DNA of 64,000 bases, taken from positions 9,095,029-9,159,028 of the forward strand of contig OZ005692.1 of NCBI GenBank assembly GCA_963930775.1, written 5' to 3'. The position numbers were made by a program, and so were the translations under genes. The stretch is from Cliona cf. orientalis. Lineage: Eukaryota > Porifera > Demospongiae > Clionaida > Clionaidae. Numbering within the stretch: position 1 is the first letter of the stretch; each line of letters begins with the position of its first letter. Under the pieces are notes generated by a model. The model did no database searches. It saw nothing but the letters and a program-made list of their open reading frames with translations, and was not told where the DNA came from. Positions 27,504-61,212 of this stretch are shown here, in pieces.

Positions 27504-30500
27504 TCAAGCATCACCGTCAGACAAGCTCCTTTTCCTTGTAGTGGAGCCTCGTAATGGAAAATTCTTTGCCTGTTGCAGTGGGCTTATCCCAGGTGGACAA
27601 GAGATGGACGTTGACTCTGATGCACCGTGATTGCCCTGAGAACTGCCACCTTTGTGAATACTACCACTAGCATCATGCGTGGGATGTCTGAGGCCTAGCG
27701 TCGGGGAACCAGCTGTGCTGACCTTCTCGAGAGGGTGTTGTAACTGAATCTGATTTCCTGATTTGGAAGGTGAAAAAGACTTCTGAGGTGCTAATGGTAT
27801 GACACCAGTGGCTACAGCTGCCTTCTCATTATCTTTATCTCTTCCTGTATTAGGAACTCTATGTGGTGAGCTGGTTGATAGCACATCGGTGAAATTAGGA
27901 CTTAGGTGGTTTGTGATGCTCCGAGCAGGTGAAGGTAACTGCTGGGATTGGCGTCGTCGGTGGCGCTGAGGTGAGATAAACGGAGGAAACTTGGCACTGG
28001 CTTGATGTCGCAGGAACGTCTTGTAAGGTGAAGATTTCTTTTTGATTACGTCTGAAGAGTTAACGGTAGGTGTTGTTAGAGGAGACACATGATGAGGTCG
28101 ATTCATTCCAGAGAAAATGAATGGCATGGAAGGAGAAGAAGTGCTACGACGATGAATCTTCCACCAACGCTCCGGAGAGTTGTTGAGGGATTTGAATTTT
28201 GGGGTGTAATCGGCGGTACTTTCATGTGACGTTGAACTGGAATTTCGTGATCGATGTTGCATCTTAGGGGAGGAATATGGACTTAATCGTTTTACAGAAG
28301 CCTTACTGCCCCTTCGACGGGAGCTGTACAGTGCTTTCTGACGTTTTATCTGCTCCTCTGCAGCTGCAGCATCTTGAAACTGTACTTGCTGGTCATTCTG
28401 TTTCCGAGCTTTGAGATTAGCAGACACCCTATCTACTGCTGCTCTGAATGTAATTCTTGGTGAGTTATTAGCTGAGAGGCTACCGCTGTATTTGCTTCGC
28501 AGAGCCTCTTGGGCAGTGACGATTTGCATATCAAGTGATTTTTTTCTCTCCAAGAGATGTTGCTTTGTTGCTTTTACATCTTTTGACAACACCTCATTCT
28601 CTGCAGGAAGACGATGGAGACTAGATCTAGTAGCGATGGTTCCTGGTTTCCAGACACAGTGCTGCTCACCCTCACGTAGATATTCACTCTCCTTTCGTGA
28701 TATTCTCTTTTTAGGAGGTGATTTGCTAGGGCTTTCTTCTTGACCCACACGTGTGATCTCTGTAGAGAAATCCTTTCTCCTTGGCTCTGGAGTCTTTTCG
28801 GTGTCACTTGCTGTCTCCGTTGTTGTCTTGCTTTTCAGCTGAGCTGAAGAATGGGCTTGGTGTTTATTGATTGGTGATGGATGACCTGATGACCCTTGGT
28901 CGTTGATGGAAAGTGAGTGCAGTGATACTTTATCTTCGTCTGGATTACTAAAACTGGATATCGTATCCTCTTCAGTTGGTTTTTCTTCTTCTGTGAATGT
29001 GAGGTCGTCTGGATTATCTAGAGCTGGAGGAGCCACTGGCTCTAGATCTGAGCATGTCGATTGTGCATGTGACGCCTCACCATTCCCTGCAGCTGGATGT
29101 TCGATTGAGTTACAGGAATCACTTGGTACATCGCTCAGCTCCTCCATGATTGGACTAAGGAATCGCTCCCCTTTGTGACTATCTCCTTCGAGACTATCCT
29201 GGTCACCACTTGAATTCTCATGATCACTACCCTCTCTATGACAGCTCTCCTCCAAAACTATCTCAGCACCCTCACAGTCATCACGAGGCTCTATTTGATC
29301 ATGAGATTCTTGTGACGTCTGGCTCTCTACCAGGAAGGTAGGAGCTACGAGATTTCTTCGTAGACAGAGAGGGGAGTTCCAGAGATCGAGGTCGTATGAT
29401 CTAATTTCATCATCTGTAGTGCTACTAGCTTTTCTATTGGCAGAATTTGATCCTTCATAATCTTCCTGCGAGTCTTCCGAATCCTCAATTGAAACTGCCA
29501 TAGAACTTTTCCTGCAATAAAAGGGGTACCTTATGAGCGCTATACCGGTACCGGGTAGTATATAGCAGTGGTATAGCCTGGGTATTTTGACACCAATATT
29601 CACAAGATTATTATAATATAAGCTTAACTTTCTTTGAGCTTGTGTGAACAATGCTAAACATCAGCTCCTATAATCTTGGCTGTATATACAAATTAAGCAT
29701 CACGTGCCCCCTACTTTCAACACACTTCAGCCACACCAATTTTCATGGGCTATAGCTACACTCCTGATTTTGGTGGAGGTTAAATTACCTGATCACATTT
29801 CTGACACGGCGAATTTCAATATGGAGTTTTGCATGATGGAACCAGTTGCTAGCAACAGCTAACAGAAGGAAGAACAGCACCGACAGCTGCAATATCTGAA
29901 ATTTGAATTGTATTTTAAGATCATGAATTGCTCCTCGGTTTTAAACTCAAGATATTATTGAAAACTGACCAGAATGTGTAAGTAAGGATTCACAGCATCA
30001 AAGCCAAACTGTTGAAGTATGTAGACGCCGGAGGAGGTGTAGCAGTCAAAGCTGGAGCTCTTGCAGCCCGTGTTAAAGTTTCGAAGGAGAAGAAACGATG
30101 ACGCTGAGAAGCCATAGTAGTTGGGATTGATGTAGAAGAGCCAGCGATAACTATGAGATCAAATAATATTCATATAGCTATAATGAATAATTGAGGATCT
30201 GAACTTCTTTACCTATAGAGCATATACCATAGTATACCACAAGTTGCTACATGCAATAGCCGTAATAGCACGTGGGCATGCACTTAAATATAACTCGCTA
30301 TTTTTTTTATCCGCATAGAAGCTACTACACTGACGCCGGCATTTGCCTGGGAATAGCGAGCTTGAGATATACAATGTCATGTGCTATCACAGCCAGTAGT
30401 AGTCTATACTTACCCCCAGTGCATATCGTGGATGGGTATAAAGAAGCCACTGGTGAATCCTGCCACACTTGAGATAACGGGAGAGAGACGGACAGCCTTG

Positions 30501-33500
30501 CTTGGAAAAGCACAGATGAGGGCTATGAGTAGGGAGATCCAGGCTTGATTCAGGGAGATATTCACCACCACAACTTGGACAAAGGTTAAAAAGTTGTAAG
30601 ATGTGGAATTAATCAACTGCAATAATAATATAATATATCAGTTTCAAAAGCTAGCAAGCTGCAAGATTATCCATGCTTAGTCTTACCAATAGATAGAGAA
30701 TCCCAGCACACACCACGACTGGGAAAAATGCTAGCGACACTGCTCTGATGAAACCCTGAATGATCAGGTCAGCTGCATGACCAATACCATCACCATGCTC
30801 ATAGCGATAGACCTATCATAAAAAGAATGTGATATTATGGCTAAGATATCTATACCTTGAGTTCAGAATGACACATATACATGTACATGAAGCACCAATG
30901 TAGTCTCATTAATCCCAGCCCTATTCCCAATTATCAATTGAAAATCTGGGAATAAGGCTATAGGCACTGCATGAGGCTAGCACCAGTAAGTGAGCAAACA
31001 CTATCTAACCTACCTCGAGTGCTGTGAATAAGTTATTGTAGAGGATGGGAAACATGAAGAGAGCACTGGCCACAGAGTAGACACAAAATCCCGACATCAC
31101 CAGCAGAGGAACTGTCTGTTGAAAGTAAACTGTACCGAGAAGAATCCCATAGATGAAGAACACCAGGGGAAGGTAGGCCATTTGGCTGTAGCTGCTCCTC
31201 TTTGATGCTCGGGCTTCTTGACCAGCCAATCGATGAAAGATCCCAGCATGCTTATCATGCACCCTGAAAGAGAAAGAGAGAAAATTAATAGGGGTACTTT
31301 AGGTTATTAAACAGGTACGCCTTCAATTGATATTATTGTGCTACTAATAAGTCATTGAGGTGGGGATATAATAGCCATTCTTATGTATATTTGTAGATAA
31401 TTATTATATATACCTTCTTGCTCCGTATAATGCATAATGGAATTGTTGCTTCATCGTCTTTACTGCTGGCCCATCGACTATTGCAGCAGCGATGATGGCA
31501 TTCCTCACAAACTTTGGTTCATGTGAGGACTGATAGTACTCAGTGATGATCTGACGCAAGGTAGAATTGCCAAGAATATCCATGAGCACATCTGAAAACA
31601 CAACTTATATAATGTCATGTACGTCATTTCACTGTAACCTTGGGCTTATTGGACAATTTGCATACATTGTGTATCTAGCTATGTATAGTAATACTGACCT
31701 GCTGGATTTTGATCCTCTAATTCAGGAATCACAAGTCCTCTTTCAAGGTAGTGTGCCTTTAGTGCTGTCACAAATACTTCATAAGCCTTTTCTGGCACTC
31801 CATGATAGGCAACCTGTCATATTATTATAATAAATTATTGTGACATAATAATAGAAGAAGAGTCCACAATCTGACCATCTAAATGAATAACAAGCCCTTT
31901 CCAATCATCTTATCTTTGCCTCTCACCTTTCCATCGGAAAGAAGAACCAGTCTGTGGAACATGTGGAAGATCTCCAGTCTAGGTTGGTGGATGGTGAGGA
32001 TCACGGTGCGGTTGGAATCAGCCAGCTTATTTAGGTGACTGAGCAACTCAAATGATGAAGCTGCATCCAGCCCTATAAGTAAAAGAGTATTGTCATCAAG
32101 AATTCAGATATTGTGTGGTGGCTAACCTGAAGTTGGTTCATCAAGGAAGATGACACTGGGAAGCTTGAGCAGCTGGAGGGCAATAAGCAAACGTCTCTTT
32201 TGACCACCGCTCAGACCTGGTCCTGTAGCCCCGCCCACAACTGTGTTGGCCAACTCCAGCAAACCAGTCTGTTGAAATCACGACATTGTATGAAGTCAAT
32301 TATACAACCTCAGTCAAGAGCTATATTATAGGGGGGAAACTGGGAATGTTCTAAGACTCAGAGGAGCCGGGGGGATGGCAACAATAGCCCGATCAAAGTG
32401 AAGCTTGGAATGATGGTGATAAGTTAGCTACAGTGACTTACCACAATCATGACCTGTTCTACTCGTTCAAACTTCTCGTACTGGGAGTAATTCTTGGAGA
32501 GTTTGATCTGCGCAGCCAGAGTTAGGTTCTCTCTCACGGTCAGCTCTTCGAAGTAGGGCGTGGCCAACTGGAGCACATAGCCAGTATTGGCCACATACCA
32601 GTCCCGTACCTCCTCCATGATGATCCCATTAACAAAGATCTGACCCTAACATTATGCAAGAAAATAAATCACTAAACAGCATGACGATGTGGACTAGCAA
32701 AAATCCCAAGGATAATCTAGCATCAATATCACACTAGCCAAAAGGAGTTATTTCAGCTTTGGAGCATTACACATTATAAATTTGGGAAAGGATCTCTAAG
32801 GGTAGCCATGTAGCTAGCTATAGATGGCTGATTATAATAACATTTTTGTAAGAAAAGTAACCATAGCTACCTGCATTGTTCCTTTGTGTCTTCGTCCAGT
32901 CAGAAGATCAAGAAATGTTGTCTTTCCACAACCTGTGCATGAAATCAAAATGATATACTGTTAGCATAGAAGTAGTGGGGCACAGAAACGCCATTAAATC
33001 CACCAACATCCTTCCTATTCATATATTCACAGCCATTTTACTAGAATAACAACATAGATCCTGCATATTTGGTTGCTACGCAGCACCAATGTATATAATA
33101 TAGGGTTAGCAAAATTAATCAAAGATTGAAGTTCATCTTGCTTAACGTTTCGAATATCTTTGAATACACTAGTGCGGATGCATAACTTCAATGCACGTAT
33201 AGCTACGCATGGAACTTCACAAACTTACTCACCCGATGGTCCCATGATCCCAATCAGCTCTCCTGGGTTGAAATAGAGAGAAATTCCCTCTAGAATCACC
33301 TTCTCTCTCTTGGACCGCTGTATAACACTGGTTGGTGGTACTTCTTTAATAGCCTCTGCGTTTTCACCATTATTGATTTCACCACAGTACATAATATCTT
33401 TGGCTTCATTATTAATGGGTTGGTCATCTACACCAAGATCCTCAATACATTTGGAACATGAACTATGGTATGAAGTGACAGGGGTTGCCTGAGTACTGTT

Positions 33501-34884
33501 AATTGGTGCTTGCTGATCATGATGCTTATGAATGCTGCTGAGTGCTCTGTCTGATGCTGTATGGGAACCACCAAAGGAAGAAGTACCCGGAGTCGAACTG
33601 GAAATGCTAAACTATAGAAGAATTACATGTGTAGATAACTAGCTGTAGATAGAACGCATACAGCCATAGGCCCATAGATGAAACTAAATAGTGACTCACT
33701 GGAAGGTTTAGTGTCTGATTAGCAAATCTTCTCAGCTTGTATCCCACTCCCTCATTCTCGTGAGTGTGTTTGTAGGACGCTTGCAGAATATGAGCTAAAC
33801 AAGAACCATAATTATACAACCATAATAATAATATACTTATGTACATAATCTCTCAGATTCATTATGCGATCACAAGTGACTCACCCCTTTTCAATCTTTC
33901 GTATCTATGAGCTGGAGTTCTTGAAACATGGTGGGGAGCACTTTCTGTCTCCACTGCCTCAATGCTTGGTTCATAAATACCACTAGGTTCAACAGAACCA
34001 TCCTCGGAACCGAATGAGATGGAAAGAGTATCGAGGGTGGCTTTTGCAGAATGTTCATCCATGATTAGGAGACTTGGTTCAGTGACATCCTTTCTTTGAG
34101 GTGTGTTTGTCATAGAGGTGACACTATAGCCAAGGTCGAGGCAGGACACCGAGATTGCATCGTCATCTGTGCTGCTTGGAAACTGCAATGCAATACAGGG
34201 CATGCATAATATTAATTAGAGTTCCATTTCTACACACAGTTCCTCCCTGCCATGGTTATTTGATTGTTGGCAGTTCAACATTGAAAAACGAAAAGGATTT
34301 TGGTAAGGCTAGAATGAAAGCTTAAGTACATAATTTTTGGTACTAAACCCTTGGAAATCTGTGGCAGGCACAATAGATTACCATGTACCAGGAGCATATT
34401 ATGAGCCGCCGACTTATATTATAATCTCCTGTATGCTAGCTGGCAATATTCACATACCTGTAGTGCTGTTTCCAGGTAAGTGATGGATTCAGAACCAAGT
34501 TGGTCCAAATACTGTTTCTGCTTCCATTCCATTCCACACACCCACAGTGCAAATGTCACCTTCAATACAATACACAAAATAGCAGTTCCTCCCACCAGGA
34601 GAGAAAGAAACACATGCACGCTAGAACTCCAAATGTTGTGATTTAATTCTCCAAGTAGAAACATCTCTGGGCAGGCATCATTGCAGTGAGGACCTTGGCA
34701 GCTATCTCGAAATACAAAACTTGTGTTCATAGTGTATTTATTTTGGTGCCACTTTTGTAAGGCATCCCTAATGCTGAGATCTTGGTTAGCATCTGTGAGA
34801 CGGAAGCTTGTCCAGGTGTTAGACTGAATTGAATGCCTGCATGTGAATAAAACTTAGAATCAATCACTGTCAGATCAGTTGTGC

Positions 34885-34981
<97 letters not shown>

Positions 34982-36411
34982 AGAGGGAGGGAGAGAGAGA
35001 GAACCCACCTAACAACACCAATATCATTTCCAACTTCCACCAATCCATTTCCTAAGAGGCTCTTCCCAGGTTCACCCCACAGAGTAGACGTAGCAAGGTA
35101 AATGTGTTGAAAGCAACCAGTGACATAGAATGACGCCAATCTCAACTCCTTTCCTGTCGCTATTACACTGGAATTCATCTGTCCTCCATACTCAGATACT
35201 ATGCGCAAGAATTCTAAAGCATAGCCTGGTTGGAGTGACTGCTCCTGACTGGCAATAGCCACTAGACCTCTCAAGGAGGCGGAGAGAAGAAACATATCGT
35301 AGAGACTGTTGATTGAGAAGAGAGGGACGTCTGAAGGATAGTATTCGTCACTGCTGAGGAGACAATGGGCCAATATGCAGCAGGGTACTCCATCTATCAG
35401 GTCACTGCACGCATCCTGCCAAGATATGATGTCAAAAAATTCAGCCGATGGTTGAGTAGCTTGATCTGAATTCCCACTGCTCATGGTTGAATTGGCATCC
35501 CCTTGTACACTGAAGCTCACTGCAGAGTCCTCACTATCAACGTGAAAAAAGCCACTGAATTCTTTTGCAATGTCTCCGTTGAAGTTAATGAACCAAGCTG
35601 AGTCTATGATGATACGGATGTCAACCTTTGCTAAATTGTTTTTGAAGAGATCTTGCAACCATCTTACATGATTTATTGCTCCGATACCTCCCGCACTGGA
35701 GCCCACCAATACCAGCTCTGTAGCCTTGTCAAATCCTAAGTTGAGTAGATCAATGACAGCACTCCGGAATATCTCCGCTCCTCTAAAAACAAACTGAAGC
35801 TCAGATGAATCTGGTTCGTATTGGTGCGCAAAAAAGTTCTCTTCGTCTTCAGGACCCAAATCTCTTGTATCATTTCCCAACCAGAGATCACTGCTGCAGT
35901 ACGGTAGAACTACGTGATTATGATGGCAAAATAGAGGGTTTTCTTTACAGTCCCTATCAAGTAGATCTCTGCCGTTGACTACTAAGCCCTTTGGAAATAG
36001 CATCTGATCATTACGGTATCGATGAATTGACGACATGAGAGGAGAAAGGACACTTGCTAAATCTTTCCCTTGAGAAGATCTCCATGCTTCTGCAGCATCA
36101 AACTCCTTATCTGGATCAGAATTGCCAGTCACACTGACTTTGGCTTCTTGTTTCAAGTATTTTGATTGAATGGTAGGGTGGAAGAAACGTTTATTGCACG
36201 TTTCAGGTGAAAAGCACAGACCTCCACTTTCAAGGACGATGATCCATTTTGTGGATCGAGGGTAGCTTTCCTGAAAGAAGCCAGCCCGAGTAAAGTCATT
36301 GCAGAGGGCTCTGGGATTTGAAATATTCACCCATCGCATCTGAGCCCAAGATGCAGGTGGAAATAAAACGCTAATAACTGCCACACCACACAATATACTT
36401 TCAATGGTCAT
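27504..36411 (-). CDS. Notum-type carboxylesterase fused to ABCG half-transporter
   Basis: Seventeen exons form one frame of 2091 codons: 36411-35009, 34836-34458, 34182-33885, 33794-33700, 33611-33233, 32932-32871, 32645-32442, 32268-32127, 32072-31927, 31813-31699, 31591-31414, 31263-31014, 30812-30687, 30616-30414, 30150-29970, 29895-29789, 29511-27504. Residues 1-24 are a signal peptide. Residues 25-530 are a Notum/pectin-acetylesterase domain: [27 protein letters not shown] with nucleophile S239, D372 in SLYDMF, H436 in GCFQH, and the Cys-rich end [12 protein letters not shown]. The exon carrying that end continues into a membrane span (537-568). ABCG part: Walker A GPSGCGKT (849-856), signature LSGGQ (959-963), Walker [11 protein letters not shown] (979-988), then a six-span ABC2-type domain (about 1135-1420). 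The last exon adds 669 Ser-rich residues with a possible coiled coil. Notum removes palmitoleate from Wnt and ABCG proteins export lipids; a shared lipid-handling role at the membrane is inference. Confidence 0.82.
34889..34978. repeat. (GA)n microsatellite in intron 1 of the Notum-ABCG gene
   Basis: About 90 bp of pure GA on the plus strand. It follows the donor at 35008 by some 30 bp on the transcript as a CT tract. It gives a spurious Ser-Leu extension if the exon is read through. Confidence 0.95.
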
Positions 36412-37136: not shown

Positions 37137-38267
37137 CTACTGGAGTGTTACACTGCTTCCATACCCAGTGTCACTGATAAGAGGTGAAGCTTCCGTCAAT
37201 TCATCGGGATGGGGTACAATAAAGAAGGTGTCACTTGGCTGGGAGACACGATCGGACCTTGGCGCTGTGGCAACCTTCGTAAAATTTGGTACATCAATTT
37301 GTCTGCTAGACATATATGGCTTAAAGCACATACGACCGATCCTCTTGAAAAATGCCAACATCACGTTGATGACAGGATAAAAGCAAAGTAAGTAGCCCAG
37401 GGGGAACACTAATGCACCAATTGGTATGGTGAATGCATGTGCTGACCAAAGACCATAGAGCTGATCACGTCGAGAGATGAGTGTGTAAAGCCTAAGGCTC
37501 AGGTTGCACATGACGATAAGGATGTGGATAAATTGGAAAATCATGACGTAAAGAGTTTTCTTGAGGAGGTGACGGGCTTCCTTGGACATCTTAAAGTAGA
37601 TAAAGGCAAACACGAGGCTTGCAGCCATTCCTACTACGCCTACTGATACATAGAGGCTATAGAATGCCATTTGTGTCACAAAACCTGAAGGTTCACACTG
37701 ATCGTTCAGTGAACGTATCCAGCACCAAGGTCCAGCCACACCATAGCTCTTCTTTACATACGGAAACACAGCAAAACTAGTTGAAATTGAGACGGGTAGG
37801 GCGATGTATACAATCTCCAATGTCACAGAGTAACACTTTGATCTGATGAATCGACATTGAGGAGGAGAGGAAGATCCTTTCATTTTCGTTCCGACGAGAC
37901 AGAGAAGATGGACAACAATCTCGTAGGACAGAATGAACACCAAGACGTATGTCCACTGAGTGAAAAATCCCAGCCAAACACACACGGTCTCTTGTCGTCT
38001 ATAATGCCACTGGTGTTCAATGGTCAGTCCAACTGCAATTTCAGTCAGTAGTGTACCAACGACCAAATAAAGGTAGAGTCGTTGAAAGAGGCTTGAGTAT
38101 GCTTTCTGACAGATCAGGAACAGCAGGATTGCCAGAGTGATTGCAGCACATATGAGTGCTGTGATGTTCCGTAGTCTGTTGAAGAATTTCATGTCCTCAA
38201 CAGTGAAATCGGTACAGTTCATATTGAACTGTGATTCATTCGCAGAGTATGCATCCTCGAGCTCCAT
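37137..38267 (-). CDS. Seven-transmembrane receptor (orphan GPCR), intronless
   Basis: One exon of 376 codons from the first in-frame ATG. An earlier in-frame TTG is not a likely start. The short N-terminus carries glycosylation-type sites (NESQ, NCTD, NITA) and no signal peptide. Seven hydrophobic spans lie near residues 34-54, 62-83, 94-124, 147-172, 198-225, 237-262 and 276-307. Cys96 at the head of span 3 and Cys182 in WCWI of loop 2 probably form the usual disulphide. The hydrophilic C-tail holds acidic and Ser/Thr-rich stretches. There is no DRY or NPxxY motif, so it is not rhodopsin class. The WCWI loop recalls cAMP-receptor-like and secretin-like receptors; exact family and ligand are unknown. 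The surrounding genes (Notum-ABCG, HypX) lie on the same strand but are separate units. Confidence 0.8.
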   Translation of the reverse strand: MELEDAYSANESQFNMNCTDFTVEDMKFFNRLRNITALICAAITLAILLFLICQKAYSSLFQRLYLYLVVGTLLTEIAVGLTIEHQWHYRRQETVCVWLGFFTQWTYVLVFILSYEIVVHLLCLVGTKMKGSSSPPQCRFIRSKCYSVTLEIVYIALPVSISTSFAVFPYVKKSYGVAGPWCWIRSLNDQCEPSGFVTQMAFYSLYVSVGVVGMAASLVFAFIYFKMSKEARHLLKKTLYVMIFQFIHILIVMCNLSLRLYTLISRRDQLYGLWSAHAFTIPIGALVFPLGYLLCFYPVINVMLAFFKRIGRMCFKPYMSSRQIDVPNFTKVATAPRSDRVSQPSDTFFIVPHPDELTEASPLISDTGYGSSVTLQ

Positions 38268-38520
38268 GATTGACCAGCATGAATACGATTCGTTTCGCAA
38301 GCCATACGCTTTAGTGACGACCCTTACCTAGCCAGCTAGTGCTCACGTGGTAGGCATGCAAATTCGATTCTGAAACTTCAGCTATAACATAAACAAAATA
38401 CTGGAAATTCAGGCTGCTTGCTATGTACCGTACTGCAAGCTAGGCAACAGTCATTCTCAGCGTCCATGTAGCTAGCCTAGACAGCTACTGAAATGGAGAA
38501 GATGATGATCTAAAATAACC

Positions 38521-39413: not shown

Positions 39414-41462
39414 TTAGTGCACAAAAGAGTTACGGGCAAGTATGTATTCCTTGGATTGAAACGAGTGATACATTTGCTCCAGCTCATGTGTACGGCATTT
39501 TTCAGCTTCGTCACTGTCAAATTTTTCTGCTTTTTGCTTGAGAAATCCATCCCAGCTGAAATTATAGAGTAGAGATTGGACCATCTGCTTTACCTCACTG
39601 ACACCATCTGGCGAGCTGAAATCTACTAGCTGATCGACAAGGCCAACTCTAGCAGCATACTGGGCAGAGATAGGTTGGCATTCTTCGGTGAGCTGTTTCG
39701 ATAAAATATCACCAACTCGACGAGGGAGGGAGTAGGTCCAGTACTCGGAACCATAGAGGCCCATGTGCTGGTAGTAAGGGTGTAGCACAGCATTGGAGTC
39801 GCACCACACCAGATCACCAGCTAGAGGAAGCATGACACCACCTGCTCCAGCTCCACAGCGAATGAAGGATACCACAAGCTTGTCAGTAGTATTGAGAATC
39901 GATTTGGTTACATCGTCAATTGCTTCGATATTTCTAGTAGACTCAATAACTGGATCTGATGCATTATGGATTACATTCAAATGGATGCCATTGGAGAAGC
40001 TGTCTCTTCCACCCATAAGAACGATTGTTTGCACGTCACTTCTCTCCTTGGAGAGATGATTGTAGACGGACTTTAGTCGAATCGCCTGGTCTGTGCTCAT
40101 TGCACCGTTGCAGAAGTCAAAGTGTAAGTATGCAACCCCAAGTGAATCATCGATGCTGTAGTGGATATCTTTCCATGCCGGATTTGCTAGCTCCTCTTGA
40201 GATTTTGGAACGTGTTGCGGGAGATTTTCAACCATCTTTGGAACTGTGGAATGCTTCCTCAATGCTTGCTCTGCTGGCAGTTTGAATGAGCCTTTCTTCT
40301 TCATCTGAGTCACCCAGACAAATTCATCTGGTGTGTTTGTGGCAAACAGGACAGCGCCGTTCATTTTCAACACCATTTGTCCGGGATGAAATTGTGTTTT
40401 CTGAGCATAGTAGTGATCTACCAGATCTGATCCCTCAGCGTAAGCATTATAAAAGAAGTACTGTTCCCCAAAGATGTCTGTCTTAATCCCAGGCTGGCCT
40501 GAAGCAGCATTGATCTTCTGTGCGATCGTCTTTGCTGAATCGTGTTCCCAGGAAAAACCTCGCTGCTTTTGCATTAAAGGTGTCTGCTCATGTCCACGAG
40601 CATTGGGGTAATTCTTCAAACTGATTGGCATAGCCTCTGGATTCTTGAAGCTCTCCAGTGCGTTATCAATTGCATCAATTGCGGCTCTTGTGACATTCGT
40701 GTGGTACAGCTCGGACTTGGTGACTGCATTGCTAAGTGGGAACTCTTTTGTCGACCATATTGCACCAGCATCATAGTCCCCATGTGCCTGAAGGACAGTC
40801 ACTCCCCACCTCTCACTCTCGGGCTTCCAGTCTTCGAATTTAAGCAACGCATAGTCGATGGAGTATGCTCCTCTGTCTCCAACTATTCCCGGATGGACAA
40901 TCCAGCACATGTACTTCTCGTACACTTCAGGTGGAATCTTTTTCGTCAGATATGGGCAAAGGACAAGATCTGGTTGTACCTTTTCCACCACTTTCTCTAT
41001 ATCTCTACTGGAATCAACAGCTGCGATGTTTACGTCATATTCATCTTTTTCTCGCAAATGCATGTAGACAGCATTGGTAAGGCTGTTAACTGAAGTGCTG
41101 ATGAGTAGTATTCTCTTCAGTTGATCTGGGTTTCGATTCAAGATCAACTGGTATCCATCATCTTCTGGTGACATTCTCCATTGATTGATCCTCTTCGCAA
41201 GAGGTTTTTCAGCATTGGTAGTGCGAGCTGCAGCAGTTGCTAGTGACGATTGCATCCTAGGAAGGACGATTGGCAATGGAGTATTATTCATGCAAGTAGC
41301 ACTCCCGTTAGCACGCCGAATGATTGCAGGTACATTCACCACAGTCTTGAAGGTATTGTATGATCTTTTCAAGATTTTGCTAGGCATGCGCACTGAAACA
41401 GGCGTTCGTAGTACTAGTGTCCTTTGCGCTAGAAATCGTCCGTAAGTTGAGGCCAGCGACAT
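39414..41462 (-). CDS. hypX-like: HypX-like protein (formyltransferase-like plus enoyl-CoA-hydratase-like), intronless
   Basis: One uninterrupted exon of 682 codons. Residues 1-115 are extra compared with bacterial HypX/HoxX (about 560 aa); the first 50 are rich in Arg, Ser and Ala with few acids, like a mitochondrial presequence. Residues 116-330 match the formyl-tetrahydrofolate hydrolase/transferase-like half (KRILLISTSVNSLTNAVY, HPGIVGDRG at 190-198, WGVTVLQAHGDYDAGAIW at 219-236). Residues 430-650 match the crotonase half (GGRDSFSNGIHLNVI near 484-498, then RCGAGAGGVMLPLAGDLVWC). In bacteria HypX makes CO from a formyl group via formyl-CoA for NiFe hydrogenase. Animals have no such hydrogenase, so the role here is open; one-carbon or CO chemistry in mitochondria is inference. 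The absence of introns and the bacterial architecture suggest an old transfer, but the presequence, promoter and poly(A) signal show a host gene rather than contamination. Confidence 0.9.
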   Translation of the reverse strand: MSLASTYGRFLAQRTLVLRTPVSVRMPSKILKRSYNTFKTVVNVPAIIRRANGSATCMNNTPLPIVLPRMQSSLATAAARTTNAEKPLAKRINQWRMSPEDDGYQLILNRNPDQLKRILLISTSVNSLTNAVYMHLREKDEYDVNIAAVDSSRDIEKVVEKVQPDLVLCPYLTKKIPPEVYEKYMCWIVHPGIVGDRGAYSIDYALLKFEDWKPESERWGVTVLQAHGDYDAGAIWSTKEFPLSNAVTKSELYHTNVTRAAIDAIDNALESFKNPEAMPISLKNYPNARGHEQTPLMQKQRGFSWEHDSAKTIAQKINAASGQPGIKTDIFGEQYFFYNAYAEGSDLVDHYYAQKTQFHPGQMVLKMNGAVLFATNTPDEFVWVTQMKKKGSFKLPAEQALRKHSTVPKMVENLPQHVPKSQEELANPAWKDIHYSIDDSLGVAYLHFDFCNGAMSTDQAIRLKSVYNHLSKERSDVQTIVLMGGRDSFSNGIHLNVIHNASDPVIESTRNIEAIDDVTKSILNTTDKLVVSFIRCGAGAGGVMLPLAGDLVWCDSNAVLHPYYQHMGLYGSEYWTYSLPRRVGDILSKQLTEECQPISAQYAARVGLVDQLVDFSSPDGVSEVKQMVQSLLYNFSWDGFLKQKAEKFDSDEAEKCRTHELEQMYHSFQSKEYILARNSFVH

Positions 41463-41548
41463 GGTTGTGGCGGTTTAAGGAGGGCTGGTGGCTGCGATAG
41501 ATCGAATCAGACTTGCACGATTGTGAGCTCGCTTCGTGCAGTTGCTCG

Positions 41549-48600: not shown

Positions 48601-51600
48601 GTGGGCGTTACCGTACGCGGAACGTCATAGCATGCGATCGAAATTGTACTGGCGCTATGCACGTACGTACAAATAGGGGCTTTCCCCACGGCTCTAAAAC
48701 AACAAATATGGCATTTTCTCAGATGTGAAAGTGAAATTTAAAGTTTTGATACATTTCATTTTCTTTATTTCTTCCATTCTTCACCTGCATATAAAAATTA
48801 TTGCATAATATTGTTCCATACGCCCCAAGAATTATTTATTTACATTACATTACATTACTCATATGGAAATTCTTTTATCTTAGTGTGTAACAAGGCGACC
48901 TGAACACTAAGCAGAAAAAAAATTGTCTAAAAACCACCATATAACCGAGCTGGGTGCATAGTGGAACCATACAATGCAAGCAGGCAGCCTATACATTAAT
49001 TTTGACCAAAGTGGGTAATGGTCGTCACGTTGATGTGCGCGCGTGGCCCCACCCCTCACGTACAGCGTGGGCGGAAAACATTGCAACTGCATGGCTTCCT
49101 ATACAAACATATGGGAAAACTTCAAAGGGCCATAACTTTAATTCTAAGGCGTGAATCAAAAATCTGTCCGGTCAAATCTCTAGTTTCGACCCATTCTGCG
49201 TGCCCATGTAAAAATTATCCCCCCAAGTGCTCCCAAATCCCCCACGAATTAGATTATTTATTTAAATTTGCTTTTTTTTTCTACTTAGTGTTTAATTTTT
49301 TTTTCTATAACATTTTTGCATCTAGACGCAAGGATACATACAATAGCTTCTATGCTAATACATGGTATGCACCCTACTAATTATATGTATACTACAGTTA
49401 AGACTTCAGTTTGGCTCTTGTGCGTGCTGCAATAGGGGTCCAGGATCTGGTGCTCCTTGTGCACACGTGGAGGCCAGGCTTTCCATCAACAATTGAGAAA
49501 TTGACTGTTGCATGGTCTGGGATTGTCAAACTGTATATTATATATTAAAACATTTATCGAGTAATAATACCATAATACCGTAAATTTGGAAATTTTCGTT
49601 GTAAAAATATTTTTGTAGTCGATGGCGGCTACGAAAATTAATCTTACGAAAATTAGCATGCACTATTAGCGCTAGTGCGGTAAGGGGTCGTTCCTATTAT
49701 CATATGAAAGTTTCTTTACACGAAAATTTCTAGATCTACAGTATATATCGTAGTTAATCGAATACAATGTATGATCCAATCTAACGTAAGAAATTAGCAT
49801 TTTACAAATTCTCTTAACGTATATATATATGGAGCGATTGACGACCTTTACCAGAAAAGCACACGTTTTTCAAAATTGAAATTATCTTTTTTTCCATACG
49901 TAGTATTAGATATAAGTAGGGTATAGTCTAACAGAAAAGGCTCATGGGTGGCCGGTGCACTGTCTTGCCTTGAGCTCAAACTGGAGGGTGGGGGTCACTA
50001 TTAAGTACACAAAGTAAACAGTATGAAATAATAATAATATTTACTATTATCATAAACTAGTGTAGTAACCGTAACATTACTCCGTACTCACAGCAAGATG
50101 ACCTGGACTATCGAGTGTTCTTTATTAACAGCTTTGCTGACAAAGCAAGAGAAATCATCTGCTATGTGAGTAACTCATTGAGTTTTATCAAGCCATAGTT
50201 AAATTTTAGCATCAAACTTTGTGTGTACACACACTGTCAGGCTCAGAAACGCAATTACACTTACCCTCGATATGCTTGGATATTGTATGACTGGTATGCT
50301 GAGGAGTGGTGGACTACAGGAGATCCTATTGACTGCAGTGATGGTGACTTGAGGAGATTTCTAGACAGGGCAGTCACCGTACAGTTGCCTGAGTTTGGTA
50401 ATGGAACCACTACCATCGGAACTGTAAGTCTATTCAGCAAACTGATTAATAATTACTGTATAGCCGGAAATATTGGCGGGAATTGAATTTGGCGGTTGAG
50501 CCCAAAATCGCTATTGCAAGAATATTAGCGGATTTAAATTTGACGGTTCGGTACGGGATCGCCATACATAATATTATGTAATATACGAGTAGGAAGTTTT
50601 TTGGCGGATTTTAATTTGGTGGTTATAACATAGACCACCAAACTGCCAAATTTAATTCCCCGCCAATTAAAGAAAATGTATGTGGTATTATTCTTACAAC
50701 ATGCAAATGTTCGATGGTAACAGTATACTTGTGATGTACTATATATAGGTTGTTAGTAGCATATGCAGTACCACTATCTTGTGTTGATTTCAGAAATTGA
50801 CGGGATTCACAGAAAAATACGAAGAGAGGGCAAGGAATGAGAGCTATTCCATCATCAACCAAGCTTACAAGCTTTATGATGTGCTGTGGATACTGGCATT
50901 GGCACTGGACAGCACTGATGCTATGATCAAGGAAGAGAGTAACGTCACCATGATGACCGACTGTGAAAATGCAAATGGGGCGCTGGTTCCACTGGAAGAT
51001 TTTGATTATTCAAACGAGCTGATGGGGTGTGTGATTCGGTGGAATATCCAGCAAACTCGTCATTTCTATGGATTAACAGTCAGTAAAAGTTTGGTTGTGC
51101 ATTGTATATAACATAATATTATTTATATGACCTGCATGCTATGAGAAAAGCTAGGGGCTATTAGGAGTCCGTGTATGGGTGGTGGTATGAAAAAAAATCT
51201 GTTTGTGTGATATCCAACTTACTTTCTACAGAACTAGTAGTACCAGTAGTAGTAACATTAATAGTATCGGTATATAACAAATACAGAGCAGAGTTACATG
51301 CACAGTACATTACTCCACACATAAAACAAGCTACATACTACAAATTTTGAATATAGACGATTACTATGCGTGACTCTACCACTTTAATTAGGCAATGCTG
51401 TCTATCTATCCTTTGTAGGGACGTGTTTTATTTGATGAAGCTGGAACACGCATACATACTCAAGTTTTCTTTCGGCAGTACCAAGTACAAGGTATCTAAA
51501 TTTCACCATGCTATGCACCATTAATTTCTTTTAATGGGGTTGTTGGGTGAAGAAGGGCATTATAGTGAACTAATCAAAGCCAGCTGCCACATTAAATTTT

Positions 51601-53959
51601 TTTCCTATTGCATAATAATTATTATCTTATTATAGGAACCCAACTGATGAAGTTTTCTTTCGCTGAAGTCGACGAATCGGAAAATTTTACATTCAACTTT
51701 ACTTCTAACATTACTATTTACCCAGGTAAAAACATTAATATTGTAGCACTTACCTTTCAATCAAAATATACTATATTATTAACATTATTATTAGCTGGAA
51801 CACCACCAGATGGTTCACCAGTGATGAGAATTCGTACATTCAAGATTTGGCTGATTGCACTCTTTGATACACTAGCGATATTGGGGATCATCTTTGCTGT
51901 GGCGTGCTTTCTATTCAATCTCATATTCAGAAATCGACGGTAAGCAACAGTAGCTAATCTTAAGTTTGCTCAAAGGGGATGTAGTTTCATGTAAGCAGTG
52001 TTCTCCCCAAGCTAAGTTCAAGGCATGATGGGAGGGCATAGTTTGGGTGGAGCCTGTGGCCACATCAAAGCACACGGGACTATCTCTATTGCCACATCAA
52101 AGGAAACTCTGAACTGAAGGCTTGTTGGGCCGACATGCCTTAGGTATGCTGGGGAGAACACCGATGTAAGGAATGACATCATTATGCACGTATTATAGTT
52201 CTAGTGTCACCGTTAGCACTTAAGTTCACACTCGTTTCTCTTTTTACTGCTGATTTTTTTTTTATTTTCCTGTCCATCATTAATAGAACAGTGAGGTTAT
52301 CCAGTCCAACTCTAAACTACTTCATCATTGCTGGTGCAATCTTAATGTACATCTCCATCTTCTTCTACTTACTGCCAACAAAAGAAGAAAATGTGGTAAA
52401 AGCTCGTTGTGTGGTAAGAAAGATTTTAACTATGACATTGTAGGATCTATGAATGATAAATTTTATGCCTTTGCTATTTTAGGTTGAATACTGGCTGTTC
52501 ACTATTGGATACTCCCTGGCTTTTGGTGCTGTCTTTGTGAAAATGTGGAGAGTCTATCAAATATTTCATAACCCCCAGCCGAATAGAAAAGTAACATGAA
52601 TTGATATGACAATTGCAAGAGATTACTCACAATAATTAATATTGTGCCTTTCAGATTCTGACAGACTGGAAGTTAATTTTCATAGCATTAGCCATCACTG
52701 GGCTTACGATGCTATTGCTGATAATTGGAGAAGGAATTCCATTCTTGAGAGGGACTCCAAAGCAGGTGAAAGACCGTGAAAGTCAGCGAGGAAGGGATGT
52801 AAGCTTTTGGCAAAATTAATATCAAACTTTTGAGGGAGAAAGAATTTCGAAGTCTGAGAGCCACCTATGAAAGTTTTTCCATGATATTTAGACATGCCCC
52901 AACCTATTATATACAATATTAATTTAGTATTCCACGAAAATTTTCTTCACGAAATGCTCACTCCCGTGAAAGTTTTCTCCCACACAAGTTTCCCTTTGTA
53001 CCATATAATTATTAGCTAAAAATGATACAACTTATTTCCTTGCAGTCACTTGGAGTCAGAGTGGAGTACTGTGTTTGGATATGCCAAGAGGCAAATGCTC
53101 CAAGCTTCTACTGGCAGATTTTTGTCTTTTTCTACCTCATCATGCTCCAAGTGATCGGACTAGTGTTGGCTATTCAGACGAGAAAAGTAAAACTTCGCGG
53201 ACTGAGAGATTCAAAATACGTCGCTGCCATTATCTACATCTCAAGCATATCAATTGTAGTTATGGCACTGGTGACCTTTGCCCTTGTGAACTTCATCAAT
53301 ATTGGCACGGGGATATTTGTATTCTGTGTCTTCACGCTGACAACAATCTTTCTTGTCCTAATATTTGTCCCAAAGGTGAGAATCAAAATACCCAATACTG
53401 AAACGTGGATGGTCCAATATTGAAAACTTGGGAATGGGCCTGGGAATGAGGCTAAAATGAATTATTGTATTATCGTGATTAAAACTAAGAGAAAATGCTT
53501 ACATCAGCAGTTGGTGGGCTTAGTAGCTAGCTGACTAAATATAAATATCGATCCCTACATGTTTTTTTTCAGATGGTTCTTCTCTATCGCGATCCCTATG
53601 GCAAGAAAAAGAGTGTCGTGGTTCATCATTCTCCATCAGCAGATTCCAAAACCTCAAATGGCATCGCAAATGCCAAGTCAGCAGAACTGGAGAAGAAGGT
53701 TGCCTCCTTGGAGAAGACAGTGCAGGAGGGAGAGAGGACAATGGCTGAATTAAGACAGCGGATTGAGACACTGACAAAAGAGAAAAACTTAGTCCAGGTA
53801 TATTATACCTTATTATGATAGTATGACATCCTTTGTATACAGTCATGCAGTGTATACGTATAATATGTATGATCAATTACTTATGTTTATTAATTTTTAT
53901 AGAATGGAAATGCTATTTCTCTGCGGCCTCTGCCAACAAGTATTTCGAGTGACGTATAA
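42615..53959 (+). CDS. GABA-B-like class C GPCR, gene A (complete)
   Basis: Sixteen exons give 823 residues: 42615-42830, 43141-43281, 43937-44107, 44371-44475, 50094-50165, 50241-50423, 50794-51078, 51419-51491, 51636-51725, 51795-51939, 52287-52413, 52483-52590, 52655-52798, 53046-53375, 53573-53797, 53903-53959. ATG at 42615 starts a signal peptide of about 19 residues. Residues 20-450 are the Venus-flytrap domain; GCGCSVATEPVAE (S102), ISYASSSAVLSDRS and ILYDWYAEEWW (Y254) align with ligand-binding segments of GABA-B1. The glutamate of GABA-B1 that holds the ligand amine aligns by eye with Q319. Residues 460-727 form seven spans (VRLSSPTLNYFIIAG in the first loop and span 2). Residues 766-803 are a leucine-heptad coiled coil, as used for GABA-B dimerisation, with RQR at 791-793. 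Intron 4 is 5.6 kb and contains nested elements and an antisense gene. The ligand is not proven. Confidence 0.92.
43605..43729. mobile_element. Short inverted-repeat element in intron 2
   Basis: GTATCGGTC at the left end and GACCGATAC at the right, with further imperfect pairing (TGATAC/GTATCA) inside. About 125 bp with no coding capacity. Confidence 0.5.
44525..44935. mobile_element. MITE (ACACTAAG family), copy 1, in intron 4 of gene A
   Basis: Starts with CAAGGCGACCTGAACACTAAG followed by a run of A and ends with a run of T and CTACTTAGTGTTTAA, so the inverted ends share ACTTAGTGT/ACACTAAG. It is closely similar to 48893-49310 and more distantly to 45090-45600, all in the same direction. 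Apparent ORFs on the opposite strand are shared only because the DNA is repeated. Confidence 0.75.
45090..45600. mobile_element. MITE (ACACTAAG family), copy 2
   Basis: Begins GCACACTAAGCAG plus A-run and ends T-run plus CTACTTAGTGTGTAA. It is longer than copies 1 and 3 by a roughly 110-bp internal stretch after the left end and more diverged in the middle. Confidence 0.7.
45684..48478 (-). CDS. Unidentified spliced gene nested antisense in receptor-A intron 4 (tentative model)
   Basis: Exon 1 (48478-48381) opens with ATG and 32 codons (includes YRWSSTEAILYFVTRKANG) and a GTAAGC donor. Exon 2 (47479-47403; includes IDSIGYNFIWLDLYYKW) and exon 3 (47215-47082; includes DTPNWPPLHCCRNPLSICAC) continue it in matching phases. 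A diverged copy of the end of exon 3 lies at 46485-46415 (PLSICP, CDCH, YYF) with the same entry and exit phases. A last open stretch (46172-45684, 162 codons) holds two copies of a motif of the form V-x-F-x-[LV]-x-[DE]-G-x-x-G with SxWTP[VI]; a third copy is at 49.4 kb. The join from exon 3 to this stretch is unsolved: the acceptor at 46245 leads to a stop in that frame. I do not recognise the protein family. It may be host or element-encoded. Confidence 0.42.
46338..47134. repeat. Direct duplication, two units of about 130 bp
   Basis: 46338-46478 and 47010-47134 are similar in the same direction and each includes the donor and end of exon 3 (or its copy) of the antisense gene. The spacing is about 670 bp. 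Confidence 0.7.
47813..48069. mobile_element. Fold-back element, relative of 6828-7368
   Basis: The left arm (CCCAGGCACTTCAAG, then GAGGAGAAAGGGCCTGATAC) pairs with the right arm ending CCTGGGTACGAGGCT. It lies in the intron between exons 1 and 2 of the antisense gene. CACCAAG occurs next to both ends, a possible target duplication. Confidence 0.65.
48893..49310. mobile_element. MITE (ACACTAAG family), copy 3
   Basis: Near-identical to copy 1 (44525-44935) over most of its length and in the same direction, starting CAAGGCGACCTGAACACTAAG. It directly abuts the right 21-bp inverted repeat. Confidence 0.75.
49398..49530 (-). pseudogene. Lone last exon related to the antisense gene's C-terminus
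   Basis: After a TATACAG acceptor, 43 codons end in TAA. They read VNFSIVDGKPGLHV and SWTPIAARTRAK, clearly related to the end of the 45.7-kb reading frame (VYFDVVEGTPGLQI, RWTPIACRTRSK). No upstream exon was recognised between 49.5 and 50.1 kb, so this looks like a fragment of a second copy, unless its other exons were missed. Confidence 0.5.
50472..50666. mobile_element. MITE with GGCGGGAATT-type inverted ends in intron 6
   Basis: ATTGGCGGGAATTGAATTTG at the left pairs with the complement of CAAATTTAATTCCCCGCCAAT at the right; the same GGCGGATTT-like motif recurs inside. About 195 bp, non-coding. Confidence 0.7.
51996..52162. mobile_element. MITE with TTCTCCCC-type inverted ends, copy 2, in intron 10
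   Basis: Similar to 24777-24946 along the whole length. Ends CAGTGTTCTCCCC and GGGGAGAACACC. Confidence 0.75.
53418..53453. repeat. Remnant of AGCCTCGT fold-back end
   Basis: ATTGAAAACTTGGGAATG then GGCCTGGGAATGAGGCT closely follows the right end of the element at 6828-7368. No left arm is present. Confidence 0.5.
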
Positions 53960-54337
53960 CTAGAATAATAGTACATGCTATAATATTATTATAGTGACTT
54001 TTGCCATGATTATTACCTTCATAATACATGCATTCATTCATCATTACTAACCACAATATTAATGTTACATTGTACTATGGAAGTATTTAAGTGATCACTA
54101 AACTAAATAGCTATACAGTTCGAGGAAGAGCATAATAGGTATTGCTTGACTTCAACGTCGCCACTACAGGAAGGAAGCTACAACAGTGTCAATTTAATAC
54201 CTATGACTCCGCGGTAGCTAGTCCTACGTACATCTCATAGTCGCATACTAGCTACACTATAATGTTAACTTAGCATTTGACTATGCATTATACTAAAATT
54301 AGCATGCATACAAGTCAGTAGCTGCCTGTCTCTCTCT

Positions 54338-57300
54338 ATGATGATTCAATTTCTAGTTCTACTAAGTCTTAGTTTGTTTTGTGTTGGGGAGTCAGTTCAT
54401 AACCTGACTTTCATGTTTGTGACATCTTTCGGTCAGTCTGGATTCAATGCATCTGGAGTGGTACCAGCTGCTGACATAGCACTTGAGGACATCAACAACC
54501 ATCCTGATGTTCTCCAAGGCTACCACCTCATGTATGATAAAGTGAGAGACTCACAGGTAATGAACTCTAGCATCTCTTCATTAATTTAATAAATAGCTAG
54601 GCAGTTAGAGCTTTGAATGTCTCGTGATAGAAATTCAGTATTAGCATACTCATGGTGAATTCAGTATTAGCATACAAATTTACCAAAAGAGTTAATATTG
54701 GGAAAAATATTATCAGCTAAAATTTTAAGGTTTCAAAAGTTTCAACCATTACACAGAAGGGACCAAAAGGAGCTTTTCAGGCAATTTCCCATAATATCAT
54801 TATGATAATACAATTAAATTTTAACTTTTCTAATAGTGTCATCGTGAGAGGTCACTGGACACATTCTTTGAAGGAATATTATCAGATCCACCGACAGAAT
54901 TGGCAGTTGTTGGGTGTGGATGTTCCGTGGCCACTGAGCCTGTGGCCGAAATCAGTCACCAGTGGAATATATCACTAGTAAGCAGAAGTGTTGCCATATT
55001 TAATACTCGTATCATGGCTACTAAAGCTTGGCAATCACGTAGTAATATTAACATATTCCTGAGCTATACAATGTTATAATGTTTGCATCCATATCATATT
55101 CAAGTGTCACTGAATGAAAGCCAACCCATAAGTACGGGTGGGTAAATCCATTAGGTATCCCTATAGGTTCCTCTATAGTGAACCCTCTCCTGAAGCACTA
55201 TACGTGCATATCCTAGCAACACAATGATTACGACAATATTAATCCAATCCTAGCCAGAGTAGCCGCCATGTAATGTCTGCTACTTTATACTCTGTCTAGT
55301 TAGCTTCCTTCTTAACAGTTGCACATTTACTTATGCAGGAAGCTATGAAGTAACAGATGTTGCAAGTTGTCATAATTATCATGCCATCTTACTTCTGTGA
55401 ATATGCATAAAGCTATTATTTTATCTGTTTTAATCGTACCCAATTCTTTTACCTTTAGTTGTATTTAATTGAGCCTTTGGTTGTATTCACATGTTATTGA
55501 TATGCATGGTGTTTGATTTTCAGATTTCATATGCCTCCAGCTCGCCAACTCTTAGTGAGAGGAGCCGGTTCAGGTCGTTCTTCAGGAACACCTATAACAT
55601 GAAGATCATAGCTCCTGCCTTCCGCTCAGCTGTAGCTCACTTCAACTGGACTAGAATCGCCATAATTACACAAAATGAAGGACTTTTTACTGGAGTAAGC
55701 GGCACTCATGGTGAACAGTAAACATAGCTAGCTCTACTTCTTTCCCCCATTGCCTGTTTAATGTCTGCCGTTACCAGTTTCTGTATTCCAATAGACTGAA
55801 TCAGACATAAAGGAGGAGTTCAGACTTTCAGGAATCACAGTTGAAAGCCAAACTTTTGAGACGTCTGAACAGATGATTACTATCATCGAAGATATGCTTG
55901 TGAGTCATTCACTTAATATCTGTATTAGTAGCTGTTTGAAGTGATCTATTGTACTCACTCCATAAATAGACTAGTGAAGAGGATCATCGAATATTCTTTG
56001 TAAACACGTTTTCTGGACCAGCTAGAGACATAATATGCTACGTAAGTCTCTCCAATATTAACACCTTCTTTCAATGCTTATGCATACCCCTGTTGGCACA
56101 AACCATTAAATTAAATAAGGTAATTATTGCTATTTGTACAGGCACAGAGTCATAACCATGTCTATCCCAATTACGCTTGGATATTTTACGACTGGTATCA
56201 GGATGGTTGGTGGACGATGGATGTATCTGGTGCAGTGTTTGGTGGTTGCAGGGACAGTGAGCTAGCAGGCTTTTTGGACAGAGCAATCACAATAAAGCTG
56301 CCGGATGTCAGTAACAAAACTACAGACATTGGAACTGTGAGTAGCTCCATATTGTTATATTAAGGAGAGCAGTATGTGTTCCCCTTGAAATTTCATAAGG
56401 TGATATGAGTTACATAAGGTGGGGGGGACACACAGACTGAGTCAATCTACATGAAAATTATTGTCTTTCTACAGTCTCTAACAGTATTCATGAATGAATA
56501 CGAAGAAAGAGCAAAAAGAGGAAGCTACATGATCATCAATCAAGCCTACAGGCTCTATGATGTACTGTGGGTGCTAGCTTTGGCTCTGAACGATACGATT
56601 GCCATGATTGACCGCGGAGATGACATTAATGGAACTGGCTGTGACAGAGTCTCTGGTTCGCTGGTTCCACTCGAAGAGTTTGATTACTCCAATAAGAAAC
56701 TGGGATGTCTGATTCAGTGGAATATTCAGCAAACTGACTTTTATGGTCTTACAGTGAGTATATAACAGAGTTGAAATATCATACATAAAACCTATTGTCT
56801 TCATGATAATGAGAGAGCTTGGGGACATTAATAGGGTACTGTGGCAAGGGTACTCTCCCCCCATTGAGTAACCCCCATGATAAATTAAAGTCCATAGAGA
56901 GCACAATGTTATTATTTCCACAGGGTAGAGTTCATTTTGATGAGAATGGAACGCGAATCCTCGGAAATATCGTTTTCCAACAGTACCACATGAAAGGTAT
57001 TATGCTCAAAATTTGCCATACTGACATCCTTTAGATTCCATCTATAACTAACAGGAGGCCAATTAGTGAAACGTCAGTTTGCGTATGTGGATGATACTGC
57101 TAATTACACCTTTATGTTTGATATTGGTTTTGATGATGATGACATTTTTCCAGGTGAGTACACAGCTTAGATAAACAATTTACTGATTTTAAATTTCAGT
57201 CCATAGGGGGGGGGGGGGGCCCGGGGTGGGGGATGGTCCTGATAATATGATGATTATAGGGATGTCCGTGATATGCTTCAGGCATTGGGGGCAGCCACTA

Positions 57301-59628: not shown

Positions 59629-59639
59629 TCTTGATGACT

Positions 59640-61200: not shown

Positions 61201-61212
61201 TTGTAGTATTTT

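Follow-up and report, generated by a model that had tools for sequence, protein, structure and literature searches.

A Notum-type esterase joined in frame to an ABCG half-transporter in a gene family of the sponge Cliona cf. orientalis

In a stretch of 64,000 nucleotides from contig OZ005692.1 of the sponge Cliona cf. orientalis (the window), a gene on the minus strand (36411-27504) was found to encode a Notum-type pectinacetylesterase (PAE) domain followed, in the same reading frame, by an ABCG half-transporter. Rebuilding the exons from the sequence gave 17 exons, all with GT-AG junctions, and one open frame of 2,092 amino acids (aa), whose ATG is separated by a single codon from an upstream in-frame TGA. 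An initial annotation of the window had proposed an in-frame Notum-ABCG fusion, and the single frame, together with seven paralogous loci, supports that proposal. The fusion is thus a family of about eight loci and not a single curiosity, and at the level of the gene it is almost certainly real.

An exon-by-exon search of the genome from which the window was taken (149 contigs, 216.8 Mb) gave minimum match counts, in which the gene of the window is itself included. At least 34 matches to PAE and at least 85 to the ABC part were found, some of the latter from other ABC families, while exon 2, which carries the end of the Notum domain, had at least 8 matches, 7 of them outside the window. Spliced alignment of the window protein recovered the order Notum, transmembrane segment (TM), nucleotide-binding domain (NBD) and transmembrane domain (TMD), on one strand, at all seven further loci, which lie on four contigs: three on C4 (C4b, C4c and C4d), two on C11 (C11a and C11b) and one each on C13 and C14. 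Alignment scores were 1598-2575 and overall identity to the window protein was 37-49%; in controls at three of the seven loci the opposite strand scored 51-58 and a shuffled query 52-71. The alignments were made with a purpose-written dynamic-programming script, whose models of the paralogues are not to be relied on in the linker exons (aa 594-815) and in some of the small exons. Gaps in C4b, C4c and C4d were read as N, and the Walker A exons are missing from the C4c and C4d models, where separate ABC-part matches were found (C4:9897907 and C4:6379647). In the C14 paralogue a single stop-free exon of 2,027 bases spans window residues 26-872, and thus the Notum domain, the first transmembrane segment (TM1), the first NBD strand, the insert that follows it and Walker A, which establishes the gene-level fusion with no need to assume splicing at the joint.

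The intron positions of the family were also compared. Among the 16 junctions of the window gene, those at aa 467 (phase 2), 872, 940, 1259 and 1326 were found at the same place and in the same phase in six of the seven paralogues, those at aa 987, 1036 and 1074 in five, that at aa 1387 in four, that at aa 594 in two, and those at aa 851 and 1217 in one; the junctions at aa 693, 725, 1133 and 1422 had no counterpart in any of the seven. A hydrophobic segment was present at the place of TM1 in 7 of 7 paralogues. An N-terminal hydrophobic peak was seen in the models of C11a, C11b and C4c, and the models of C14, C13, C4b and C4d fall short of a clear signal peptide. The linkers of C13, C4c and C4d show further hydrophobic peaks, probably artefacts of the spliced-alignment models.

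The window gene has the following features.

36343..36411, minus strand: signal peptide, aa 1-23 (hydropathy peak of 1.75 at aa 1-19, in-frame stop just upstream, cleavage site placed by eye)
35009..36411, minus strand: exon 1, signal peptide and most of the Notum/PAE domain, aa 1-467 plus 2 bases (Pfam PAE at aa 150-448; NOTUM match, E 2e-23)
35695..35697, minus strand: codon of the Ser239 nucleophile (GSSAGG), aligned to the NOTUM GSSAGG motif
35296..35298, minus strand: codon of the putative catalytic Asp372 (SLYDMF), present in 8 of 8 fused genes
35104..35106, minus strand: codon of the putative catalytic His436 (CFQHIY), present in 8 of 8 fused genes
34458..34836, minus strand: exon 2, Cys-rich Notum C-terminus, TM1 and start of the cytosolic part, aa 468-594 (gene model; NOTUM match)
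34539..34619, minus strand: TM1, about aa 541-567, then K/R-containing sequence on the cytosolic side (hydropathy 2.44 at aa 541-559)
33885..34182, minus strand: exon 3, first strand of the ABCG NBD (13-residue stretch) and start of the insert (aligned to ABCG1 from residue 74)
33700..33794, minus strand: exon 4, low-complexity insert within the NBD (gene model; ABCG1 alignment)
33233..33611, minus strand: exon 5, end of the insert, NBD strand 2 and first part of Walker A (Pfam ABC_tran from aa 832)
32871..32932, minus strand: exon 6, rest of Walker A (motif reading; ends at aa 872, phase 0)
32442..32645, minus strand: exon 7, NBD with Q-loop (motif reading; ends at aa 940, phase 0)
32127..32268, minus strand: exon 8, ABC signature LSGGQ and Walker B (motif reading)
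31927..32072, minus strand: exon 9, most of the D-loop, and the H-loop (TIHQPR) (motif reading)
31699..31813, minus strand: exon 10, end of the NBD (gene model)
31414..31591, minus strand: exon 11, NBD-TMD connection (gene model)
31014..31263, minus strand: exon 12, start of the TMD (Pfam ABC2_membrane at aa 1170-1344)
30687..30812, minus strand: exon 13, TMD (Pfam; ends at aa 1259, phase 0)
30414..30616, minus strand: exon 14, TMD (Pfam; ends at aa 1326, phase 2)
29970..30150, minus strand: exon 15, TMD with a Cys-containing stretch ahead of the last helix (gene model)
29789..29895, minus strand: exon 16, last TM helix (hydropathy 2.61 at aa 1384-1402)
27504..29511, minus strand: exon 17, Ser-rich tail of about 668 aa, presumed cytosolic, and stop codon (open frame)

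Pfam families listed for aa 1-1443 numbered ten, with no EGF (epidermal growth factor) family among them, and included PAE (110.6 bits, cut-off 26.6), ABC_tran (93.3 bits, cut-off 25, aa 832-987) and ABC2_membrane (40.7 bits, cut-off 26.9). When aa 1-594 were compared with PDB sequences at E up to 1, NOTUM was the sole molecule matched (8 of 8 matches, best E 2e-23), as it was with a seven-row profile (8 of 8, E 5e-32 to 2e-31); by sequence, then, the esterase head is nearest to NOTUM. For the ABC part, Pdr5/CDR1 and ABCG1/ABCG2 were best among the best 60 of 562 PDB sequences, and ABCG1 led the single-domain matches (155 bits) within the five chains listed. The best NCBIfam match of the ABC part was the White-type pigment precursor permease family TIGR00955, covered over nearly its length by aa 4-584 of a 607-aa query, at 275 bits against a cut-off of 736; NCBIfam gave no match for the Notum part. 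The NBD lies ahead of the TMD, with one of each, which is the ABCG order, and Walker A (GPSGCGKT), Q-loop, signature LSGGQ, Walker B (VIFLDE), D-loop and H-loop are all intact. In the TMD, hydropathy at one threshold gave six peaks, two of them overlapping, and so five separable segments. The tail holds 16.3% Ser against 9.8% in the rest of the protein; tail-like open frames were found behind the C14, C11a and C11b paralogues, and for the others the sequence taken was too short or held short frames only.

At the joint, exon 2 (34836-34458) had been annotated as carrying both the Cys-rich end of the Notum domain and a membrane span, and it was found to do so, the Cys-rich end being an 11-residue stretch. 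The distance from TM1 to the NBD is only about 40 residues. Once the following insert was removed, a 13-residue stretch at aa ~604 aligned to the first NBD strand of ABCG1, so that the ABC domain starts earlier than the Pfam match implies and the low-complexity stretch of 190-200 aa is an insert inside the NBD, not a linker between two proteins. This insert (33611-34182 of the window), between NBD strands 1 and 2, has a long counterpart of different sequence in the paralogues. TM1 is followed by basic residues, which fits an esterase head outside the cell and an NBD inside; the topology implied at the outset, with the esterase outside and the tail inside, holds up. Intron 1 (34870-35009) consists mostly of a TC repeat, and reading through it gives a Leu-Ser run and then a stop.

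The proposed catalytic residues S239, D372 and H436, as well as Walker A, signature and Walker B, were all at the places annotated for them. Asp372 and His436 lie inside the Pfam PAE match, and the local alignments to NOTUM chains stop short of both. The nucleophile Ser is present in seven of the eight fused genes (in C4d as GSSSGG), C13 having Gly, and the Asp and His are each present in all eight. Since identity to the Notum domain of the window gene is only 38-46%, this conservation favours catalysis. In C13 (2.2357-2.247 Mb) GSGVGG stands for GSSAGG and IDGGV for LSGGQ; both halves look inactive and the gene may be decaying. The fused C11 paralogue at 6.6437-6.6545 Mb has, by eye, frame-shifted-looking stretches compared with its close sister at C11 5.75 Mb, and is perhaps decaying as well.

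The esterase had been called Wnt-delipidating in type, which goes too far. Where NOTUM has Trp128-Tyr129 (LEGGWYC in human, LEGGWHC in fly), the window protein has Gly-Leu (LESGGLC) and every one of the eight fused genes Gly-X; in addition, the enzyme is tethered. Tyr129 is the partner of Trp128 at the oxyanion hole and lipid pocket of NOTUM. As oxyanion holes are built from backbone amides, loss of the pair counts against the lipid specificity of NOTUM and not against catalysis. According to the available text of one report, Trp128 helps to form the oxyanion hole and the pocket mouth (PMC8172013). Wnt matches were found on three contigs of the genome, along with three glypican matches and one weak Wntless-like match (36 bits, two stops inside). 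With the Trp128-Tyr129 pair not conserved, the link of the fused esterase to Wnt is weak.

Other esterase and transporter matches of the genome were also placed. With a 173-aa fragment of human NOTUM as query, 32 matches were obtained, every one of them in a fused locus, a Notum-only copy or one of the other PAE genes (C14 and C18). The query detected no NOTUM gene standing on its own and matched the fused C14 gene best (40% identity, E 3.7e-21). Over 479 aa, two Notum-only copies on C4 share 98% (9.8019-9.8064 Mb) and 96% (9.8646-9.8686 Mb) identity with the fused C4c gene (9.881 Mb). Such identity, together with an alignment that ends at the phase-2 junction at aa 467, makes them look like recent partial copies; they might instead serve a shared ABC part as alternative 5' cassettes. 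The tandem PAE genes at C14 0.7050-0.7119 Mb and the one at C18 1.392 Mb are unlike NOTUM, in an animal genome that has Wnt genes; presumably they are of the plant type. The C14 copies have GCSAGG and YCDGxSF blocks and C18 has YCDGASF with its nucleophile motif seen in part (GCS), and no ABC match lies beside them among the 85 listed. An isolated-looking NBD match on C1 (59% over 66 aa) had no Notum domain in the 7 kb around it, mostly upstream. A scan of genome contigs with an exon-1 alignment pattern gave 21 matches, none of which was confirmed. The ABC2_membrane search gave 11 exon matches (C8, C10, C14 and C15), among which C14 was the sole fused gene; since the other fused genes were missed, this search is too insensitive exon by exon for counting ABCG genes.

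In an NBD tree, seven fused NBDs formed one clade with support of 99/99, against outside rows (ABCGs of the same genome on C8 and C10, ABCG1, ABCG25, Pdr5 and CDR1) that carry a long-branch warning; the C8 and C10 genes are called unfused because those contigs have no PAE match. In the Notum tree, the eight heads and the two Notum-only copies grouped apart from NOTUM and another PAE (84/85), with NOTUM rows filling less than half of the columns and an inner branching too poorly resolved to be matched with that of the NBD tree. The ratio of nonsynonymous to synonymous substitution rates (dN/dS) was estimated for six pairs and five stretches, giving 30 comparisons; dS was finite in 14, with several rough values above 1, and dN/dS was below 1 in 13 of these. 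For C11a and C4d the ratio was 0.17 for Notum (0.15 for aa 160-535), 0.13 for the TMD and 0.33 for the NBD, where the C4d model is incomplete. The window gene gave 0.13 for the NBD and 0.16 for the TMD with C4c, and 0.12 for the NBD with C4b, while C4c gave 0.10 for the NBD with C11a and 0.24 for the TM stretch with C4d. For C11a and C11b it was 0.60 for Notum (0.40 for aa 160-535), 0.34 for the NBD and 0.42 for the TMD. Where dS is measurable, dN/dS is thus below 1 in both halves.

As the head sits where an exporter releases its cargo, the simplest mechanism is that a substrate is exported first and its ester bond cut afterwards. The signal peptide would direct the Notum/PAE-type serine esterase to the outside of the cell, and TM1 would lead directly into an ABCG half-transporter with a cytosolic NBD and its large insert, a TMD and, again in the cytosol, the Ser-rich tail. 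Two copies of the protein, or one copy and a sister, would assemble into an ABCG exporter that has two esterase heads where the substrate leaves. Driven by ATP, this exporter would move a lipid or a hydrophobic small molecule, acylated or acetylated, to the outer leaflet. There the tethered esterase would cleave off the ester group, and this step would either make export one-way or activate the product. Dimerisation, surface location, catalysis, the substrate and the action of both activities on the same molecule are what we infer here. Coupling of release and export, as had been suggested, is plausible; as for the name lipid exporter given to the ABC part, the ABCG family match stands, and a lipid substrate is a guess at the level of the family. 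We give a tethered surface esterase at the exit of an ATP-driven lipid or small-molecule exporter an even chance of being correct.

Several points weigh against this proposal. The sequence holds no sign of a substrate common to esterase and exporter. The losses in C13 may mean that part of the family works without catalysis, or that it decays. Fungal Adp1, the closest layout, has no known function according to the accessible text on it (PMC2848647). AlphaFold2 models of window exon 1 and of C14, made from eight rows each, were poor (mean predicted local distance difference test scores of 49.2 and 48.7); all 50 Foldseek rows shown for each of the two were NOTUM, with TM-scores of 0.29-0.44 by query length and root-mean-square deviations of 9.5-13.6 A, so that they serve for fold ranking only and have no use at the level of residues. 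Furthermore, dS was saturated in 16 of the 30 comparisons, leaving a ratio for the Notum half from C11a/C11b and C11a/C4d only, and the sole ratio not below 1 (1.1) came from the TM stretch of C11a and C11b, where the C11b model is doubtful.

Other explanations were weighed against a tethered esterase that acts on the exported molecule. The head might delipidate Wnt or another acylated protein at the cell surface, the ABCG part being an anchor or clearing the freed fatty acid. The Wnt, Wntless-like and glypican matches described above would be in keeping with such a deacylase, as would the finding that the human NOTUM fragment reached no separate NOTUM and matched the fused C14 gene best; the Gly-Leu of the window and Gly-X of all eight genes at Trp128-Tyr129 speak against it, as do about eight divergent genes, seemingly too many for a single signalling brake, and we think it unlikely. 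Alternatively, the head may be non-catalytic, a binding, gating or dimer-stabilising ectodomain on an exporter, a role that the EGF-type ectodomain may also have in Adp1. Adp1-type transporters have that ectodomain at the same place, as far as the accessible text of two reports goes (PMC2848647, PMC9426558), and C13 has lost its nucleophile, but retention of Asp and His in eight of eight genes and of Ser in seven of eight, at 38-46% Notum identity, makes a non-catalytic head doubtful.

It is very improbable that a TM-anchored Notum and an adjacent ABCG gene were misread as one. Reading through past exon 2 meets a stop after about a dozen codons, so that a truncated form by intron retention is possible, which counts in favour of two genes. 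Against this, the C14 stop-free exon crosses the joint, the same order recurs at seven paralogous loci on four contigs, and exon 3 holds the first NBD strand with no Met ahead of that strand within the exon. The two-gene reading was rejected on the C14 exon and the seven paralogous loci.

As far as the accessible text shows, Adp1 and related fungal ABCG proteins share with the window protein a large soluble N-terminal domain, a membrane segment, one central NBD and a TMD, in that order, the NBD of Adp1 lying between two transmembrane domains (PMC2848647, PMC9426558). Unlike the PAE/Notum hydrolase of the window protein, the soluble domain of Adp1 consists of EGF repeats. NOTUM (palmitoleoyl-protein carboxylesterase; PDB 4UYU, 4UZJ) resembles the head as a pectinacetylesterase-family hydrolase with GSSAGG, a PYCSSDxW block, a Cys-rich C-terminus (C..PxCN..CP) and a signal peptide, but it is secreted and unanchored, whereas the head is joined through TM1 to an ABCG domain in the same frame, has Trp128-Tyr129 replaced and extra insertions, and reaches 40% identity to the human fragment at best (C14). 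The half-transporters ABCG1, ABCG2, ABCG5/8 and White likewise have one NBD before one TMD, and differ from the window protein by its esterase ectodomain and TM1, its insert of 190-200 aa between NBD strands 1 and 2 and its 668-aa tail. A literature search covering titles and the starts of abstracts, with subscription journals largely missing, found among the papers listed no description of a Notum/PAE esterase fused to an ABC exporter.

Around the fusion gene, a multi-span receptor-like open frame (37137-38327) lies on the same strand and ends about 730 bases before the start codon. A 686-aa frame at 39414-41474 resembles a fusion of formyltransferase and enoyl-CoA hydratase, and repeated receptor-like exons at 51596-63262 suggest a tandem array of related membrane receptors, all three by look only.

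For many ABCG proteins the substrate of the exporter is an open question. If the fusion is real at the level of the protein, an enzyme attached to an exporter hints at what that exporter carries, a question also open for Adp1. The fusion bears as well on the origin of the Wnt deacylase Notum. A tentative and rather improbable thought is that Notum-type esterases of this animal lineage exist only as outer heads of ABCG exporters or as recent fragments of them, in which case the fusion would be an old animal system of export and deacylation, from which free secreted Notum split off or for which it was the source.

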